Source of the DNA: Clostridia bacterium
Lineage (GTDB): Bacteria > Bacillota > Clostridia > Christensenellales > Pumilibacteraceae
Direction: 5' to 3'
Assembly: GCA_022791915.1 (NCBI GenBank)
Contig: JAAWAB010000015.1
Location: 124,001 to 188,000, forward strand
DNA: 64,000 bases
In this document: piece by piece, positions 18,800 to 32,601 of the stretch
How the letters are laid out: each line of letters begins with the position of its first letter
Position numbering within the stretch: position 1 is the first letter of the stretch
Program-made: the position numbers and the translations under genes
Notes under the pieces: model-generated
The model's database searches: none
What the model was told of the DNA's origin: nothing
The model's input: only the letters and a program-made list of their open reading frames with translations

Positions 18800-18970
18800 A
18801 TGGCAAGAGTAATCAGCAGTGATTGCATCAAATGCGGCAGTTGCGAAGGTCAGTGCCCGGTGGGCGCTATCAGCGAAGGCGCCGATCAGTACGAAATCAA
18901 TGCCGACGAGTGCATCGATTGCGGCGCTTGCGAAGCGCAATGCCCGGTAGGCGCTATCAGCGAGAAGTAG
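18800..18970 (+). CDS. 2[4Fe-4S] ferredoxin (56 aa; absent from the ORF track)
   Basis: MARVISSDCIKCGSCEGQCPVGAISEGADQYEINADECIDCGACEAQCPVGAISEK: two CxxCxxCxxxCP clusters; RBS cggaggg. Confidence 0.95.
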   Translation: MARVISSDCIKCGSCEGQCPVGAISEGADQYEINADECIDCGACEAQCPVGAISEK

Positions 18971-20598: not shown

Positions 20599-22119
20599 TT
20601 GTTTTTACGCGCAAAAAAATGCGCGCGTTTGGCACATACTATCGGTGTGCCGCAAAAAAAAGTAAAATACAATCCCTATCTGCACGGCGGGGCGTGGTTG
20701 CTTACGGCAGCCGCGCTTTTGGGCAAACTGCTCGGCGCCGTATACCGCATACCGCTTACGCGCATTTTGGGTGCGCGCGGCATGGGGCTGTATCAGTCTG
20801 TTTTTCCCACCTACGTATTGCTTGTAACGATTACGGGCGGCGGACTCACGGCGGCAATCAGCAAACTCGTAGCCGAATCGGACGGCGAGTTTCCTTTGCA
20901 CGCGGCAGTGGGGTACACGCTCTGTTTTTCTTTGCCCGTAACGCTTATCGCGGCTCTGCTTTCGCGGGTGATTGCGTCGGCGGCGGGCGCGCCCGCGGCG
21001 GTGTGGGCGTTTTTGGCATTGTTGCCCGGTGTTCCCGTTTCCGCCGTGTGCGCCGTTCTGCGCGGACGCTTTCAGGGCATGGGTAATATGCGTCCGTCGG
21101 CGTGGGGACAGCTTATCGAACAGACGGTAAAATTGATTGCGGGATTGGGCGCCGCTTATGCGTTGTCCCGCGTGTCGCTTTCCGCGTCGGTCGTGGGGTG
21201 TGCGGTGGGCGTTACGGCGGGCGAGATTGCCGCGCTGATTTTTTACCGCCTGTATGCCCGCGGTAAAACCGAATCTACGCCCGCAACCGACTCTGCGGCG
21301 GCAACGGAAAAAGCGGGCGCCGTAGACGATATGTTTTACGGAATCGAAACGCTCACCGAAGCGTCTGCCGAACTTGCGCCGCCTGCTGCCGAGCAAAACG
21401 CCGAAACGCCGTTTGCAATCCGTAAAGATAAAAGGAAAACAAACGGGGATACGGCAAAGATTTTCCGCATGGCGTTTCCCATTACGCTCGGGTTACTCAT
21501 TTTGCCGCTTTGTCAGGTGGCGGATAGTTTTGTGATTGTCAATCTGCTTGTTCGTTACGGCGCGTCGCACGAAGTAGCCACTTCTTTATACGGGCTTGTA
21601 ACCGGTCCCGTGAACGCGCTGGTGAATATGCCCGCCGTCTTTACGGTAGGATTGTGTTCTATGCTGTTGCCCAAAGTATCGCGCATGTTGCGCAAGGGCG
21701 AAAGCATTGCCGATACGGTGAAAAAAACGTTGCTGTTTTCGGTTGCGGCGGGCGTTGTGTTCGTTGCGGGACTCGCGCTGTTTGCGCCGCTCGCCGTGAA
21801 AATTCTGTACGGTAAAAGTTTGGGGCAACCGCAACACACGGTGTCGACGCTCGTTCGTCTGGCGTCTGTGTCGGTGCTGTTTGTGGTGCTCATGCAAACG
21901 TCGGCGGCGGTGTTGCAGGGCGGCGGAAGGTCGTACGTGCCTGCGCTCAATCTGGCGATTGCCGCTATAATAAAAGAAACGCTCAATTTCGTATTGTTGC
22001 CTCGCATGGGAATTTACGGATTCGTGGTTGCCACCGATATTTTTTACGCCGTGGCTTGTCTGCTCGACGTTGCGGCTCTCTCGGGTTTTTTGCTCGGATT
22101 GCGCAAAAAGAAGGAATAA
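20599..22119 (+). CDS. SpoVB-like MOP-superfamily polysaccharide/lipid flippase
   Basis: About 12 TM protein; LLGKLLGAVYRIPLTRILGARGMGLYQSVFPTYVLLVTITGGGLTAAISKLVAE. The start may be the downstream GTG (VPQKKVKYNPYLHG). Confidence 0.8.
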   Translation: MFLRAKKCARLAHTIGVPQKKVKYNPYLHGGAWLLTAAALLGKLLGAVYRIPLTRILGARGMGLYQSVFPTYVLLVTITGGGLTAAISKLVAESDGEFPLHAAVGYTLCFSLPVTLIAALLSRVIASAAGAPAAVWAFLALLPGVPVSAVCAVLRGRFQGMGNMRPSAWGQLIEQTVKLIAGLGAAYALSRVSLSASVVGCAVGVTAGEIAALIFYRLYARGKTESTPATDSAAATEKAGAVDDMFYGIETLTEASAELAPPAAEQNAETPFAIRKDKRKTNGDTAKIFRMAFPITLGLLILPLCQVADSFVIVNLLVRYGASHEVATSLYGLVTGPVNALVNMPAVFTVGLCSMLLPKVSRMLRKGESIADTVKKTLLFSVAAGVVFVAGLALFAPLAVKILYGKSLGQPQHTVSTLVRLASVSVLFVVLMQTSAAVLQGGGRSYVPALNLAIAAIIKETLNFVLLPRMGIYGFVVATDIFYAVACLLDVAALSGFLLGLRKKKE

Positions 22120-22122
22120 AAC

Positions 22123-22166
22123 ACCGTCTCGAAAAAAATTCGGAAATTTCGGGGCGGTTATTTTAT
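22123..22166 (+). terminator. Intrinsic terminator after the flippase gene
   Basis: ACCGTCTCGAAAaaaattcggaaTTTCGGGGCGGTtattttat; 12-bp stem with two G-U pairs. Confidence 0.6.
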
Positions 22167-22280
22167 CACACCGTCCCGAATCCTTCATATTATAAAATAG
22201 AGATATCTCGTAAGCCAAAGAAAAAACGGAAAAAGTGCGCATGAAGAACGCTGTACAACGGAGAAAAAGCCGCAAAGTGC

Positions 22281-22440
22281 CGTTGTGTGCGGCGCGGGCG
22301 TGAAACCGGTGACGAACACGCTTGCATACAACGGGCTTTGTTGCTCGGATTTTTAGGCAAGAGAACGAAAAAAACAACGTTCTTTTGCAAAAGGGGGTTG
22401 TTGCCGCGACTCGGGGCGAAAAAAGCGGACTTGTCGCGGC
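22281..22440 (+). ncRNA. Structured leader RNA upstream of the Cys-rich small protein (class unknown)
   Basis: Three helices: 22281-22290/22324-22333 (10 bp, one GU; encloses gcgtg/cacgc), 22357-22367/22378-22388 (11 bp, one GU), 22403-22410/22433-22440 (8 bp perfect). Confidence 0.5.
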
Positions 22441-22482
22441 GGAAATCCTCACATTTTCCATTCTGACAAGGAGGACAAAGCA

Positions 22483-22665
22483 ATGTTCAACAACTGCGGG
22501 AACGATATGTTTCTGATTATCCTGCTCCTTTGCTGCTGCGGCGGCGGACGGGACAACGGCTGCGGCTGCTACGAAAAGAAAGGATGCGACTGCTCGGATA
22601 TGCTGTTGTGGTACTTACTTCTCAATTGCTGCTGCGGCGGCGGAAGAGATTGCTGCTGCAAATAA
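22483..22665 (+). CDS. Cysteine-rich small membrane-like protein with internal repeat
   Basis: MFNNCGNDMFLIILLLCCCGGGRDNGCGCYEKKGCDCSDMLLWYLLLNCCCGGGRDCCCK; strong RBS aaggaggacaaagcaATG; terminator downstream. Confidence 0.85.
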   Translation: MFNNCGNDMFLIILLLCCCGGGRDNGCGCYEKKGCDCSDMLLWYLLLNCCCGGGRDCCCK

Positions 22666-22713: not shown

Positions 22714-22758
22714 AAAAAAAGCGAGGCTTTCCCCGTGGGGCGAGCCTCGTCTTTTTTT
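22714..22758 (+). terminator. Intrinsic terminator
   Basis: aaaaaaaGCGAGGCTttCCCCgtGGGGcgAGCCTCGTcttttttt. Confidence 0.9.
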
Positions 22759-22798
22759 GCATAAATGGGGCGCTTATCCACATATAAAGAAAAAACGC

Positions 22799-22903: not shown

Positions 22904-24475
22904 ATGACGTTGCTCGATTTTTATCTCGAAAAAAACGGACTGAAAAAATGGCAGGATACGTTAAACGGCGGCGCCGACAATACCTATCTGTTCGATTTTA
23001 CCACCAATTTCCGCACGTTGCACAAATTTGAAGAAGGATTTCGCACGTTCAAAAAAATCTGCGAGATGTCCGAAGACGAAAAAAAGGCGTATGCGGAAGA
23101 AAGCCCCGAAAAGGCGAAGTCGTTCATGAACAACATGATGCGCACCAAACTGTTTTACACCAAGGGCGGCAAACCCGTTCCCACTGTAAAGGGCGAAACG
23201 TTTGAAAAGTTTTTGGGCGAGAAGATGAGCGAAGACGACAAGTGGTTCGTGGATTTTCTGTTTGTGGCGGATTCGTATTTTTCGCTGAAAACCAACTATA
23301 TTTTTTCGCAGACCGACTACGTGTTTTCGCAGTGGGAAAAAGCGGGCTATTCGGTGGGGCAGATTTACAACGCGCTCATTTATCTTTTTAACGTGCGCGA
23401 TGCGGTGATGGAAGAGTTTTTGCGCACCGAATATATTGTAATGATTACTTTTTTGAACGACCCCGAATTTTTGAGCGCCTACCGCGAAAGCAGCGAATTC
23501 GAGAAAAACGAATTGCACGAATATTTGGTGGATAACTATTCCAAAGGGCGATATACCTGTATTATCACGTCCCGCTTTGCGCCCACCGCGCTCACCGACT
23601 GCGACACGGTGCTCGACGACGCCAAAATTCTGTTTTTCGCGCACTATCTCAAAAACAGTCACCCTATCAGTTTGGAAGATATGCTCGATATCTTCGAGCA
23701 GGTGTACACGCGGTTCTACCGATTAAACGCCAAGCGGGTGATGAACTTTATCATGATGTACGAAGACGTGTTCCGCATGACCTATCTCAATCTGTTTTCG
23801 GATATGCAGGATTTTTACATGGGGTTGCAGTTAGACGGTAAAGCGCTTGCCACCACCAAAGAAAAATTCAGCGAAGAAGAACTGAAAAAGGCGCTACTCG
23901 AACCGCTTGATTACACCACAACCGAAACGGTGGAAACGCTCGTAAAGGTGAACACCATGTTTTCGGCGGCGGCAAAGGCGGAGTCGGGGCACCGGTGCGT
24001 TTTGGAAGACGTGAACGGTTGCCGCTACTTTACCGAAAAAGAGAGCGGCTTACCCTATCTCGAAGTGCATCAGATCATTCCGCGCGATTATGCGGGCGAG
24101 TTCAACGTGAGTATCGAGCGCACGTCGAACTACGTGTCGCTTTGCCCGCATTGCCACCGCTTAATCCATAATGCGGCGGACAGCGAGCGATTCAAGGCGC
24201 TATCCGCGCTGTACTGGTCGCGCAAAGAGCGTTTGGACGCCGACGGAATCGTGCCCACAAGCGAACTTTTGTTCGCCATATACGGCATAGAGCAGGGTAA
24301 ACTCGACCCCGGGCAGAACGACTTTTCCAAACCGCTGTTGCAGGCGGCGCAACCCAAGCTGGCGGCGGGAAAGGGCGACGGCAAAACGACAACCGATAAA
24401 AAGACGGCGGAAAAGGCGGCGCCGAAAAAATCCGCAAAGCCGACTGCGGCGAAAAAGGCGGTAAAAAAGAAATAA
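22904..24475 (+). CDS. HNH-endonuclease-domain protein with Lys/Ala/Pro-rich tail
   Basis: GHRCVLEDVNG...YLEVHQIIPRDYAGEFNVSIERTSNYVSLCPHCHRLIHNA; C-terminus TTTDKKTAEKAAPKKSAKPTAAKKAVKKK. RBS cggaggatataaaaaATG. Confidence 0.8.
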   Translation: MTLLDFYLEKNGLKKWQDTLNGGADNTYLFDFTTNFRTLHKFEEGFRTFKKICEMSEDEKKAYAEESPEKAKSFMNNMMRTKLFYTKGGKPVPTVKGETFEKFLGEKMSEDDKWFVDFLFVADSYFSLKTNYIFSQTDYVFSQWEKAGYSVGQIYNALIYLFNVRDAVMEEFLRTEYIVMITFLNDPEFLSAYRESSEFEKNELHEYLVDNYSKGRYTCIITSRFAPTALTDCDTVLDDAKILFFAHYLKNSHPISLEDMLDIFEQVYTRFYRLNAKRVMNFIMMYEDVFRMTYLNLFSDMQDFYMGLQLDGKALATTKEKFSEEELKKALLEPLDYTTTETVETLVKVNTMFSAAAKAESGHRCVLEDVNGCRYFTEKESGLPYLEVHQIIPRDYAGEFNVSIERTSNYVSLCPHCHRLIHNAADSERFKALSALYWSRKERLDADGIVPTSELLFAIYGIEQGKLDPGQNDFSKPLLQAAQPKLAAGKGDGKTTTDKKTAEKAAPKKSAKPTAAKKAVKKK

Positions 24476-27549: not shown

Positions 27550-27598
27550 TGCAAATGTTACAGTACAAATTTTACTTTCTACCAGGAGATTTCGATTG

Positions 27599-30500
27599 AT
27601 GAAGAAGTTCAGAGGCATTTCAATGACGGTTCTTGCGGTGGTTTTGGCGGTTGCCATGCTCATGGGCACGATGACCGTAAGCGCCTTTGCCGAAGTTTCT
27701 TACGGCTACAAAGAGGGCAATATTACCACCGACGGCGCCGCAGAAAACGCAGGCGTTGCTACGTTTGTGGATAAACTTTCTTACGGCGAAACAACGAAAG
27801 CATTTGCGGGCGCTGCCAAATTGGTAACCCCCGGCGGCGTGGTATACGATACCAAGGATGCCGATACGGCAAAAGCGGACGCGGCAAAAACCAAACTTGC
27901 GAACTTTAAGGCGGAAGAAATCGGCATATATACCGTGTATTACGGCGAGAAGTCGGAATACAGCTATACGGTATCTTGCACGTTGGACGAAGAATACGAA
28001 TTGCGCGTAGACCATAGCGGCGCAGATATTCCCACGTATGTGCAAACGGGCAAAGAATTCACGCTTCCCAAAGCGTCGGTGTGGGCGCAGGTGAAAGACA
28101 AAGACGGCGAATATACCGAAAAACGCACCGAAGGCAATTTTGACGCGGGGTTTGAAGTGTTTGCAAAGGTTGTGGGCGTGAAAGATTCGGAAGCGTCGGC
28201 AAAAGACGCGCGAACCTTTAAGCTCGACCAGCCCGGCACGTATACCGTGCACTACTACTGCAAAGTGGAAGGCGGCACCAAATATTTGTTCAAAGACTAC
28301 ACCGTGAAAGTGCAGAGCACGTTCAACGATTCTACGGCGCCCAAACTCACTATTGTAAGTTTGAGCAAAGAAATCAGCCTGAACACAAAAGTAACCCTTC
28401 CCAAAGCTACCGTGACCGATAACTACGACGATAACGTTCGTATCGATATCAAGGTGGAAGAACTCGGAGCCGACGGAACCTATTCCGACGTGCAGAAAGT
28501 GGAAGTGGACGAAAACGGTTACGCCGTGAAAAAGTTGGGCGTACCCGAAGTGTTTGAAAACAACTACAATCTTTCGTTCTATCCTATGGAAGCTACCACG
28601 TACAGAGTTTCGTACGTTGCAAAAGACGATAACGGCAACGAAACGACCACGCATAACTCGTATACCGTGAAAGCGGTGGATAAATCGGCGCCCGTTCTCA
28701 AAGAAATCGACGACGAGAATATTCCCACCAAATACGGCGTTAAATCGGTTACGCGCGGAAAGAACGAAGGCGAAACGGTAGACGGCGACACGGTAAAAAC
28801 CGAGAACCCCGTAATCAACTTCCCGTATCCCGAATACGTGGATAATTCGGGCAAGGACGAAAACGACGTCTACAATAAAATCAGCGTTTCGTTCGAGATT
28901 AAAGACACGGTGAACAATCAGACCGTACTCAAAATCTCCAACATCTACGCCAAAGCCAACGAAGACGGCACCACGGCTACCGCCGCAAAGTACACCTACG
29001 ACGCGAATCTTTCCACCAACGGATTGTATCCCGAAGACGCGGAATTCGTTACCGACGAAAACACGGGAAAGAAAGTGTTGCCTGTTTCCTTCTATAAATA
29101 CGCCGAAAAACTCGGCGAAGGCAAGACCTACACGGGAACGTACACGGTGACCTACCGCGCCAGCGACGGCACCAACTCCACCAGCAAAACGTATGACATC
29201 GACCTTGTGGACGATTTCACCGATACCGACGAGGCGGCAATCAAAGTTTCGTTTACCGACGATTATCTTGTTGCTACTACTACGGAAAAAGATTTTGTGG
29301 TTCCCACGCCCGTGATTACCGACGACACCGATACCCGTCCGCTTGTTACGTATACGCTTAAAGGCAAAACCGATGCCGACGTTCTTACGGTGAAAGGCGG
29401 CGAGAAAGTCAAGATTTATCTCGACGGCGGGAATAACGCTTTCATGAAATTAGACGACAAGACCATTGCGCTCGGCGATACGCTTGCCTATGAAATCGTT
29501 GTAACCGACGATGCGGGCAACGTGAAAAAGGAAAGCGGCTCGGTGCAAATCGTAAACGCAAGCGCCATGACGATGACCAAAGATACTCTTGCTTTCAATG
29601 GAGATGGGCTTCTCAAACATGCCGATATGGTTGACGATAAGATTCTCAAACCGGGCGTGGATATAAATCTCGGCGAATTCAGCTTTGCGGTGAATTCCGA
29701 TCAGCGCGAATTCTACGGATTCGAATTGAGCCTGGTGAAAGACGGCGAACTTTGGTCGGCAGGTAAGATTTCGCTCGACACCTACTATGCAAAAACAAAT
29801 CCCAACGATGCCACCGATACGGCAGGCAGAGTGGTTGTGAAAAACATCACCGTTGCGCCTCCCGCAATCGAAAGCGATTTTGCTCTGTATATCCGCGTGT
29901 TCAATGCGGCGGGCATGAGCTTTACCACCAAAATGGATATCAACGTGGATAAACCCGATCCCGACGATGACGATAAACTCTCGGCGGCGGAAATTCCCAC
30001 CACGGGTAACGTGTATACCACGTATACGCTCAAAAACAAAGAACTCACCAAACCCGGCGATCTTACTACGAATGTAAATGAGCAATATATTATCCGTCAG
30101 ATTTCGGGTAAAGGCAAGTTCAGCCTGATGGGCACGCAGTTCACGGCTTACAATGCAGGTACGTTCACTTTTGTGGATGCGTATATCAATCAGAGCGGTC
30201 ACACGGTGCCGTTTGCCAAGAACCCCGGCTACACGCTTACCGTAACCGACGGCGGCACGCCCGCTTGGCAGGTGCAAGGCGAAATGCCTTCGTACTCGCC
30301 GCTGAACGAAAAAGTTACGCTTCCCAAAGTAGTGGCATCTTCGGCTTATGCGAACGCGGCAATCGACCTTGCGATTACCGACCCCAAGAGCAATTCGCTC
30401 AAAATCGCAAGCAGTGTAGCCGACAACACGGGCAAAGACGTAACGATTGACGAGAACGGCAACTATGTGTTCACGCCCGATAAAGACGGTTCGTACACAA

Positions 30501-31018
30501 TCACCTACACGGCGCGCTACGGTAACAACGAACAAATTACGCAGTCGTTCACCATGAAAGCAGGCGACTTCATCGCTCCCGTGTTTACGGTGGATTCCAC
30601 ACCGCCTACGCGTGCAACCGAGAACGACAAATTCACGTTCAGCGCCGTAACGCTCGGCGACGACGACAAAGCAAACGTGAGCACCACGCGGTTCGTTAAA
30701 ACGCTCAAAGCGCCCGACGGCAGCACGGTGTACACGGTAGACGGCACGGGCAATGCGTACCGCATCGCTACCACGCCTACCGATAACACGTCGGCTTACA
30801 CCTTTACCAAAACGGGTATCTACACGGTGGAATACGTGACATACGACGAAGCAAACAATTCGAGCATTATGTCGTACACCATTTCGGTGACAGCCGCAAA
30901 AGTAAACAACCCCGTGTCTACCAAGATTATCAGCACGATTCTCATTATTGTGGGCGTATTGCTGATTGCGGGCGTGATTCTCTACTTCGTGAGATTCCGC
31001 AAGGTGAAAAGCAAATAA
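27599..31018 (+). CDS. Large Ig-like surface protein, signal peptide plus C-terminal TM anchor
   Basis: MKKFRGISMTVLAVVLAVAMLMGTMTVSAFA; repeated VTYRASDG/YTVKAVDKSAPV Ig-like segments; C-terminus STIIIIVGVLLIAGVILYFVRFRKVKSK-type anchor. Confidence 0.85.
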   Translation: MKKFRGISMTVLAVVLAVAMLMGTMTVSAFAEVSYGYKEGNITTDGAAENAGVATFVDKLSYGETTKAFAGAAKLVTPGGVVYDTKDADTAKADAAKTKLANFKAEEIGIYTVYYGEKSEYSYTVSCTLDEEYELRVDHSGADIPTYVQTGKEFTLPKASVWAQVKDKDGEYTEKRTEGNFDAGFEVFAKVVGVKDSEASAKDARTFKLDQPGTYTVHYYCKVEGGTKYLFKDYTVKVQSTFNDSTAPKLTIVSLSKEISLNTKVTLPKATVTDNYDDNVRIDIKVEELGADGTYSDVQKVEVDENGYAVKKLGVPEVFENNYNLSFYPMEATTYRVSYVAKDDNGNETTTHNSYTVKAVDKSAPVLKEIDDENIPTKYGVKSVTRGKNEGETVDGDTVKTENPVINFPYPEYVDNSGKDENDVYNKISVSFEIKDTVNNQTVLKISNIYAKANEDGTTATAAKYTYDANLSTNGLYPEDAEFVTDENTGKKVLPVSFYKYAEKLGEGKTYTGTYTVTYRASDGTNSTSKTYDIDLVDDFTDTDEAAIKVSFTDDYLVATTTEKDFVVPTPVITDDTDTRPLVTYTLKGKTDADVLTVKGGEKVKIYLDGGNNAFMKLDDKTIALGDTLAYEIVVTDDAGNVKKESGSVQIVNASAMTMTKDTLAFNGDGLLKHADMVDDKILKPGVDINLGEFSFAVNSDQREFYGFELSLVKDGELWSAGKISLDTYYAKTNPNDATDTAGRVVVKNITVAPPAIESDFALYIRVFNAAGMSFTTKMDINVDKPDPDDDDKLSAAEIPTTGNVYTTYTLKNKELTKPGDLTTNVNEQYIIRQISGKGKFSLMGTQFTAYNAGTFTFVDAYINQSGHTVPFAKNPGYTLTVTDGGTPAWQVQGEMPSYSPLNEKVTLPKVVASSAYANAAIDLAITDPKSNSLKIASSVADNTGKDVTIDENGNYVFTPDKDGSYTITYTARYGNNEQITQSFTMKAGDFIAPVFTVDSTPPTRATENDKFTFSAVTLGDDDKANVSTTRFVKTLKAPDGSTVYTVDGTGNAYRIATTPTDNTSAYTFTKTGIYTVEYVTYDEANNSSIMSYTISVTAAKVNNPVSTKIISTILIIVGVLLIAGVILYFVRFRKVKSK

Positions 31019-31075: not shown

Positions 31076-31239
31076 TTTGTGTGCGGGGTTGTTCTTTGCC
31101 GAAAGAAAAGACGCGAAGGCGTATTCGGTACGCTTTGCGCGGCAAACGAAGGCAAAAACAAAACGGTACGTTTCGGGTACGTCTGTTTTGACGGCACACC
31201 CGTGGAAAACGAAATTTCGGACGGAACGTGGGAGAGAGT

Positions 31240-32601
31240 ATGGCGGAGTCGCAGGAACCGATAAGAATCAATCTGAATAAAATCGCGTCGGACGAAAAGG
31301 ACAGGTGCGTGGCGGCATGGAAAAACAGCCATGCGTTCTCCTTAAAGTCTTTTTTGCCCGTAGCCGAGGCATGCCATTTCGAGCGGTATACGTTTGCGCA
31401 CCCGCAAGGCAAGTTGGGCGTGGTATACGACACCAAAGCCGAAATGCTCACGTTAACGGCAAAGCAGGGCGTGTTGGACGCGGCGTGCCGCGAGGCGCAA
31501 CTTTGCGTGTCGAGTGCAAAGCCGCAGAGCGGGTCGGAAGAGTCGCCCGACCGTAAACCCGACCGCAAGCATGAATTTGCGGCGGACAATGCGGTACAGT
31601 CGCAAGCCGTAACCGAGCAAAAAGGCGGTTCCCGTCAACAGAGTAAGTCCGAAAACAAAACGCCCGTGAAAAATAAGGGCGCAAATAAAAAGGAAAAAGC
31701 GGAGAAAACACCCGCAAAGATACCCGCAAAAGCGTCTGCCAAAACGCCTGCGCCCGACACGAAGGGCGTGGAAAAAACGGCAGGACAGGAAACGCCCGAA
31801 TACAAAGACGGATTTGCGGTTAAAAAGTGCCCGCAAGAACGGTTAAACGGTTTTATTACGCGTATTCGCGGATTGAAAGGCGTTTCGGTATCGAGTGACG
31901 CGGCGCAGAAAAAAGACGTGATTACCTATACCGTTACCGATAAAGTACGGCACGAAAAATGTTTGGTGCGTTATGCGCCCAAAAAGCAGACGTTGCAACT
32001 GCAAGGTAAGCACAGCAATCTTTTCGGAGAAGTGCAGGTGATTTTGAGTAGCGGCTCGGGCTTTAACGAGGCAATGGGCGGCTACACGGGCGAACAGAAA
32101 AAAACGGGGTCGGTACAGCGCAGTCTGAAAAAACTGTTGCCCGCCGCGTTCGACCTATTATCCGAGCAATCCAAAATCGATTTGGGAATCGGCATGGTGG
32201 ATATAGGCAACGACGCCGTGCGATTGAGCGACTATTCGGTTCTTTTGGTTCCGCCGTACCGCGGATTGGAGCGGTTTATCTTCGATTTGCAACAGGCGTA
32301 CGCCATTTCGGTGAAAATGATTGGACAGGCATACGAGAAAGACGAGCGGGGCAATCACTGCTTAAAGTTGGCGTATCGGCGCAAAACGGGCGTGGTGTAC
32401 TCCGAAGTTATGAGCGCGCTGTATAACGAATATTTTGAAAAGCGTAATTTTTACGCCCATTCGGACAACACCGATTCGGGATTCAGCCGCGTGATTGCCG
32501 AAAAAGCTACGGCAAAAGCCATTTTCGATCACTTATGCGAAATTATCGATTATAACGCGAAAAAACTCAAAGAAATCGGTTTCAAGCCGACGGGCAAATA
32601 A
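31240..32601 (+). CDS. RnlA/RNase LS-like HEPN toxin-family protein
   Basis: C-terminus LSEQSKIDLGIGMVDIG...RLSDYSVLLVPPYRGLERFIFDLQQ...SALYNEYFEKRNFYAHSDN with Rx4H (RNFYAH). Two N-terminal TBP-like strand-rich repeats separated by a low-complexity K/A/P linker. Confidence 0.65.
   Translation: MAESQEPIRINLNKIASDEKDRCVAAWKNSHAFSLKSFLPVAEACHFERYTFAHPQGKLGVVYDTKAEMLTLTAKQGVLDAACREAQLCVSSAKPQSGSEESPDRKPDRKHEFAADNAVQSQAVTEQKGGSRQQSKSENKTPVKNKGANKKEKAEKTPAKIPAKASAKTPAPDTKGVEKTAGQETPEYKDGFAVKKCPQERLNGFITRIRGLKGVSVSSDAAQKKDVITYTVTDKVRHEKCLVRYAPKKQTLQLQGKHSNLFGEVQVILSSGSGFNEAMGGYTGEQKKTGSVQRSLKKLLPAAFDLLSEQSKIDLGIGMVDIGNDAVRLSDYSVLLVPPYRGLERFIFDLQQAYAISVKMIGQAYEKDERGNHCLKLAYRRKTGVVYSEVMSALYNEYFEKRNFYAHSDNTDSGFSRVIAEKATAKAIFDHLCEIIDYNAKKLKEIGFKPTGK

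Follow-up and report, generated by a model that had tools for sequence, protein, structure and literature searches.

The window (the whole 64,000-nt stretch of DNA analysed here) carries a short open reading frame on the + strand (22483..22665) that translates into a 60-aa protein with 14 Cys residues (23% of residues), exactly as an earlier note on this DNA had written it. A search of its own genome found one copy of the gene. The Shine-Dalgarno sequence AAGGAGG (22468..22474, +) lies 8 nt before the ATG, and its GGAGG is invariant in the genus alignment. Downstream of the gene is an intrinsic terminator made up of a CGAGGCT...AGCCTCG hairpin and the T-run TCTTTTTTT (22721..22759, +). The strong RBS and separate terminator described in the note are thus both in place. 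In the window the 5′ UTR exceeds that of the congeners by ∼95 bp and includes additional GC-rich sequence close to the RBS (∼22380–22470).

The protein consists of two copies of a unit with the pattern [W/aromatic]-[I/L]n-C(C)CG. Unit 1, MFLIILLLCCCGGGRD (residues 9–24; 22507..22554, +), includes LLLCCCGGGRD at residues 14–24, and unit 2, MLLWYLLLNCCCGGGRD (residues 40–56; 22600..22650, +), includes LLLNCCCGGGRD at residues 45–56. Each has a hydrophobic run of ∼8–13 residues in which W is frequent, followed by C(C)CG(G). Between the units lies a Cys/Gly/Asn linker, and the C-terminus reads CC(K) or CGC. The hydrophobic runs together with CCCG form the best conserved part in alignments across the order, and in unit 1 both are kept throughout it. 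Two hydrophobic stretches ending in Cys clusters, as seen in the note, are therefore borne out. Its duplicated LLLxCCCGGGRD motif is genuine as regards the two units, but in its exact form the CCCGGGRD repeat is a coincidence peculiar to this species. The congeners carry CCCGGRD, CCCGCGKHD, CCCGGKD and others, so the CCCGGGRD pair, whose conservation the note would have counted as support, is not itself conserved; what is conserved is the pair of hydrophobic run and C(C)CG(G). Cys spacing also varies freely between orthologs (CCC, CGC, CIC, CFC, SCC).

Other Clostridia have single-unit proteins of 34–40 aa, some of them encoded by adjacent tandem genes (L148, L153, L166). Within family f77, L148 and L153 each hold a tandem pair of single-unit genes (MPENRGCG... 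plus a second WFIILFLLLFC gene), and several loci of this family have ACAC-N14-CATATTATA upstream. The AlphaFold model of the window protein shows two helices, and its low confidence (pLDDT 46) precluded a fold search. The membrane association proposed in the note is plausible, though with hydrophobic runs of only ∼8–13 residues and a model of such low confidence.

Orthologs were identified in 6/6 congeners searched and differ only by in-frame changes in length or sequence. Among the six distinct genus sequences dN/dS is 0.035–0.15, the changes being mainly synonymous, which indicates strong purifying selection. This is the substitution bias that the note had named as support, and neither of the signs it had named as speaking against one (no conservation in sister genomes, or frame-breaking indels) was found. 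The 22483–22665 ORF is a genuine conserved gene, far beyond chance. In the family (the Pumilibacter group) the gene is present in 28/28 genomes that are at least 90% complete, and in the order relatives occur in 143/297 genomes (about half). Among the sampled Clostridia, profile matches were obtained in 43/293 genomes (28 at E ≤ 1e-3), some of the weak ones being frames that contain stops, so relatives are present in at least a tenth of them. A reversed-sequence control profile of equal composition matched 2/293, both with internal stops. Named matches in public genomes include Pumilibacter muris and P. intestinalis (90–93% identical), Anaerostipes sp. MAGs and other Lachnospiraceae, which places the window in a Pumilibacter-like gut Clostridium. 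Weak "paralogs" in congeners (L043–L046) turned out to be noise in other frames, or nothing recognisable was there.

The note could not assign a family, and searches of the window protein against Pfam, NCBIfam and PDB (E up to 10) gave no match either. Six distant members likewise had no convincing family match in Pfam and NCBIfam. Similar Lachnospiraceae proteins presumably carry the label "chorion class high-cysteine HCB protein 13". For this label NCBIfam has no model, and we found nothing relevant to it in the openly accessible literature.

The commonest gene order around the gene is glyS (divergent), peptide, ECF-like membrane protein, coaX, hom and Ig-domain surface protein. Several genera of the family share this arrangement, and two other families of the order have all or nearly all of it (L073, L074). 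In family f1 and two other families the gene is inherited vertically at a fixed place. The window retains the downstream part, has a flippase gene at the glyS position and has gained an HNH-type gene. Since the peptide gene persists where glyS is lost, a functional tie to glyS is argued against and the adjacency looks positional. The upstream neighbours in the window are not retained in the compared loci. Upstream in the window lie, in this order, a 56-aa 2[4Fe-4S]-type ferredoxin (18800–18970), a BspA-type leucine-rich-repeat protein (PF13306; 19030–20592) and the SpoVB-like flippase at the glyS position (TIGR02900, below cut-off; 20599–22119). On the other side, between the peptide and ECF-like genes, the HNH-type gene (22904–24475) encodes 523 aa with an HNH domain that scores only weakly (PF01844, below cut-off); it is also found in Pumilibacter relatives and at L060. 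The 1140-aa surface protein (27596–31018) has Ig-like/cadherin-like domains and a C-terminal membrane segment; its synteny is conserved while it evolves fast (about 42–46% identity in the genus). Adjoining it, in relatives too, is a 457-aa protein (31228–32601) that matches the DNA-binding domain of the RnlA toxin (PF19034).

Upstream of the gene we identified a putative sigma-K-type promoter, TCACAC-N14-CATATTAT(A/G), at 22166–22194. The −35 element TCACAC with its AC core (22166..22171, +) and the −10 element CATATTATA (CATAnnnTA; 22186..22194, +) are conserved together and in register across genus and family. The six genus sequences read TCAC(A/G)C-N14-CATATTAT(A/G), with the ATG ∼195 to 297 bp away. 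Within the family, CAC-N15-17-CATA[TC][TCA]AT occurs ≤330 bp upstream of 18/31 orthologs and of 2/451 background genes (shuffle mean 0.05; reverse strand 0), and the window has the strict form. In other families of the order the motif drifts to AACAC-N14-16-GCGTATT(G/A)T. At the class level AC-N15-18-CATAnnnT(A/G) precedes 18/31 loci against 0/91 background ORFs and is often fixed at −55 to −60. About 40% of the orthologs do not have the strict match. The exact promoter occurs once in its own genome, further scan matches being at chance level, so no shared regulon emerged there.

Sigma-E and sigma-K promoters of C. difficile share a common −10 and differ at −35, which is ATA for sigma-E and AC for sigma-K (PMC3789822). 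The element in the window has the AC −35, the CATAnnnTA −10 and the spacing of 16–17 of the sigma-K form. By comparison, spoIVA of the same genomes, which is under sigma-E in B. subtilis (PMC517825), shows the sigma-E form TCATA at −35 in most readable cases. The cotJB operons, used as positive control, have the sigma-K form in 6/13 (shuffle mean 0.7). They were taken in place of YabG, which was dropped as a control since the gene was not found. The window's own genome encodes sigma-K (TIGR02846 over the curated cut-off) and SpoIVA. Because the promoter has an AC −35 and a CATAnnnTA −10 and sigma-K is encoded, we infer that the Cys-rich gene is expressed late in the mother cell under sigma-K control. 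That its expression is tied to sporulation is a well supported prediction.

The palindrome GAGATATCTC (22200..22209, +) lies where the transcript is predicted to start and stays palindromic in congeners despite changed bases. Many orthologs (L002–L009, L087–L101) have such a palindrome or short stem-loop 3′ of the −10, with paired changes (AGAGATATCTCT, AGAGGTGCCTCT, GGCGGGAAACCGTC). Folding scores across the family are modest; the palindrome could be a stabilising 5′ hairpin or a regulator site. An Rfam search of the 5′ UTRs gave nothing over the gathering score, so no known riboswitch or T-box is recognised there, even with glyS as ancestral neighbour and a product rich in Gly.

The gene co-occurs with sporulation genes. 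Among 151 genomes of the order it is found in 78/131 SpoIVA-positive and 0/20 SpoIVA-negative genomes (Fisher p 1e-7, uncorrected for descent). The other 53/131 SpoIVA-positive genomes had no profile match, so either sporulation can proceed without the gene or diverged copies escape the profile. SpoIVA and the gene are also absent together within families f11 (G046), f22 (G057) and f29. In f29 both SpoIVA-positive genomes have real members and 8/8 SpoIVA-negatives are without the gene. The f29 and f22 members were inspected by eye and are real, with a promoter-like match of the order's form. The class-level pattern is weaker than that of the order, with 27/214 SpoIVA-positive against 1/79 SpoIVA-negative genomes (E ≤ 1e-3; p 0.0015). 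Of the three guesses made in the note, the spore-related one is thus supported by both promoter and SpoIVA co-occurrence. YabG (PF05582) was found in 0/31 relatives, most of those tested having SpoIVA, and CotJB in 12/61, none of them in this genus. The coat gene set of these relatives is possibly reduced.

Cys-rich proteins cross-linked by disulfides are a recurrent strategy in spore envelopes (PMC7333573, PMC6101409). Taken together, the window protein is probably a sporulation protein of the late mother cell that becomes part of the spore envelope through disulfide cross-links, and we infer a structural role for it there. From its sequence and conservation, TCACAC-N14-CATATTATA is predicted to be transcribed by sigma-K RNA polymerase, and the mother cell would make the product at a late stage of sporulation. 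This product comprises two like units, each a short predicted hydrophobic helix ending in a Cys/Gly cluster, with CGC/CC(K) segments between and after them. The hydrophobic segments might attach either to the outer membrane of the forespore or to coat layers that are themselves hydrophobic. Oxidation of the Cys clusters could then give inter-molecular disulfides, and the protein may end up insoluble, as a cross-linker within the spore coat or outer envelope. A bolder version, to which we give only tentative credence, is that a class-wide, so far unannotated family of modular hydrophobic-CCCG micro-proteins, with one or two units per gene, enters the outer forespore membrane from the side of the mother cell and uses disulfides to weld that membrane to the coat. 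To our knowledge, no membrane-anchored disulfide cross-linker has been described as a spore-envelope component.

The promoter and the co-occurrence with SpoIVA would fit equally well with a tiny YjcZ-like membrane protein of the late mother cell. Such a protein might alter the outer spore membrane or aid the docking of coat proteins, its Cys residues serving local packing or contact with the lipid surface. Conservation is indeed highest in the hydrophobic runs and CCCG, and in B. subtilis the sigma-K regulon includes yjcZ, whose product is tiny and hydrophobic (PMC517825). Yet the high Cys content seen class-wide exceeds what membrane packing needs, and neither YjcZ nor any other Pfam or NCBIfam model is matched, so we regard this role as unlikely. 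We find it improbable that the product is a vegetative membrane-abutting peptide in which the CCC clusters bind Fe-S, Zn or Cu. The clusters themselves and the ferredoxin gene about 3.5 kb upstream might suggest it, but Cys spacing that varies freely between orthologs is unlike a ligand site, the promoter and phyletic pattern favour sporulation, and the upstream neighbours are not retained in the compared loci. Nothing points to the metal- or redox-active role put forward in the note.

A small, hydrophobic product rich in Cys and Gly could also be a secreted or membrane-active peptide, such as a RiPP precursor, a bacteriocin or a hydrophobic toxin that is paired with an antitoxin. Genes for maturation, transport or immunity were not recognised among glyS, the ECF-like gene, coaX and hom, and the vertical inheritance at a fixed place in three families argues against it further, making this very improbable. 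Low-complexity Cys/Gly-rich sequence might finally yield an ORF by chance or composition. That explanation is refuted here by the low dN/dS, the restriction to in-frame indels, the conserved promoter and position, and the near-empty reversed-profile control. A spore-envelope cross-linker is the reading that we prefer.

How spores are built in uncultured or newly cultured gut Clostridia is largely unknown, and several classical coat genes were not found in those examined. The gene family described here is a candidate component of their spore envelope. It is short and easily missed, but recognisable by sequence and promoter, and might serve as a late-sporulation marker for these lineages. It also offers a test of whether Cys-rich cross-linked shells have been invented time and again by spore formers. 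What is new is the conserved, predicted sigma-K-type promoter ahead of the Cys-rich gene, both in the window and in the family.

CYSTM is a eukaryotic Cys-rich transmembrane module, present as one C-terminal module in a tiny protein. The window protein shares with it a hydrophobic segment ending in consecutive Cys, a likeness of architecture only, and has no Pfam-A match to it at E up to 10. Metallothionein-like binders are also dissimilar, as the fixed Cys spacing is absent in the orthologs and no model matched. YjcZ and other "tiny transmembrane" sporulation proteins are Gly-rich and hydrophobic, and YjcZ is not known to have Cys clusters. YjcZ of Bacillus resembles the window protein in being tiny and, going by the predicted promoter, in its sigma-K regulation (PMC517825). 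Its Pfam and NCBIfam models (E up to 10) match neither the window protein nor the six distant members searched.

Cys-rich exosporium proteins form arrays, and we know of none with hydrophobic runs of the kind seen here, which counts against the cross-linker reading. CsxA (Clostridium sporogenes), ExsY/CotY (Bacillus cereus group) and CdeC/CdeM (C. difficile) are likewise very Cys-rich. Compared through database models rather than pairwise, the window protein shows no Pfam, NCBIfam or PDB match (E up to 10) that would link it to CsxA, ExsY/CotY or CdeC. As no homology to CsxA, ExsY/CotY, CdeC/CdeM or YjcZ was found, we file the protein in none of these families. Unlike CsxA, ExsY/CotY and CdeC/CdeM it is far smaller (60 aa, or 34 aa in the shortest single-unit gene), contains two hydrophobic runs and occurs widely across Clostridia. 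On its side the likeness to exosporium proteins includes the sigma-K-type promoter predicted for the late mother cell. The proposed cross-linking by disulfides within the spore envelope would be a further parallel with CsxA, ExsY/CotY and CdeC/CdeM (PMC7333573, PMC6101409), and additional unrelated Cys-rich spore proteins are expected in many spore formers (PMC7333573).
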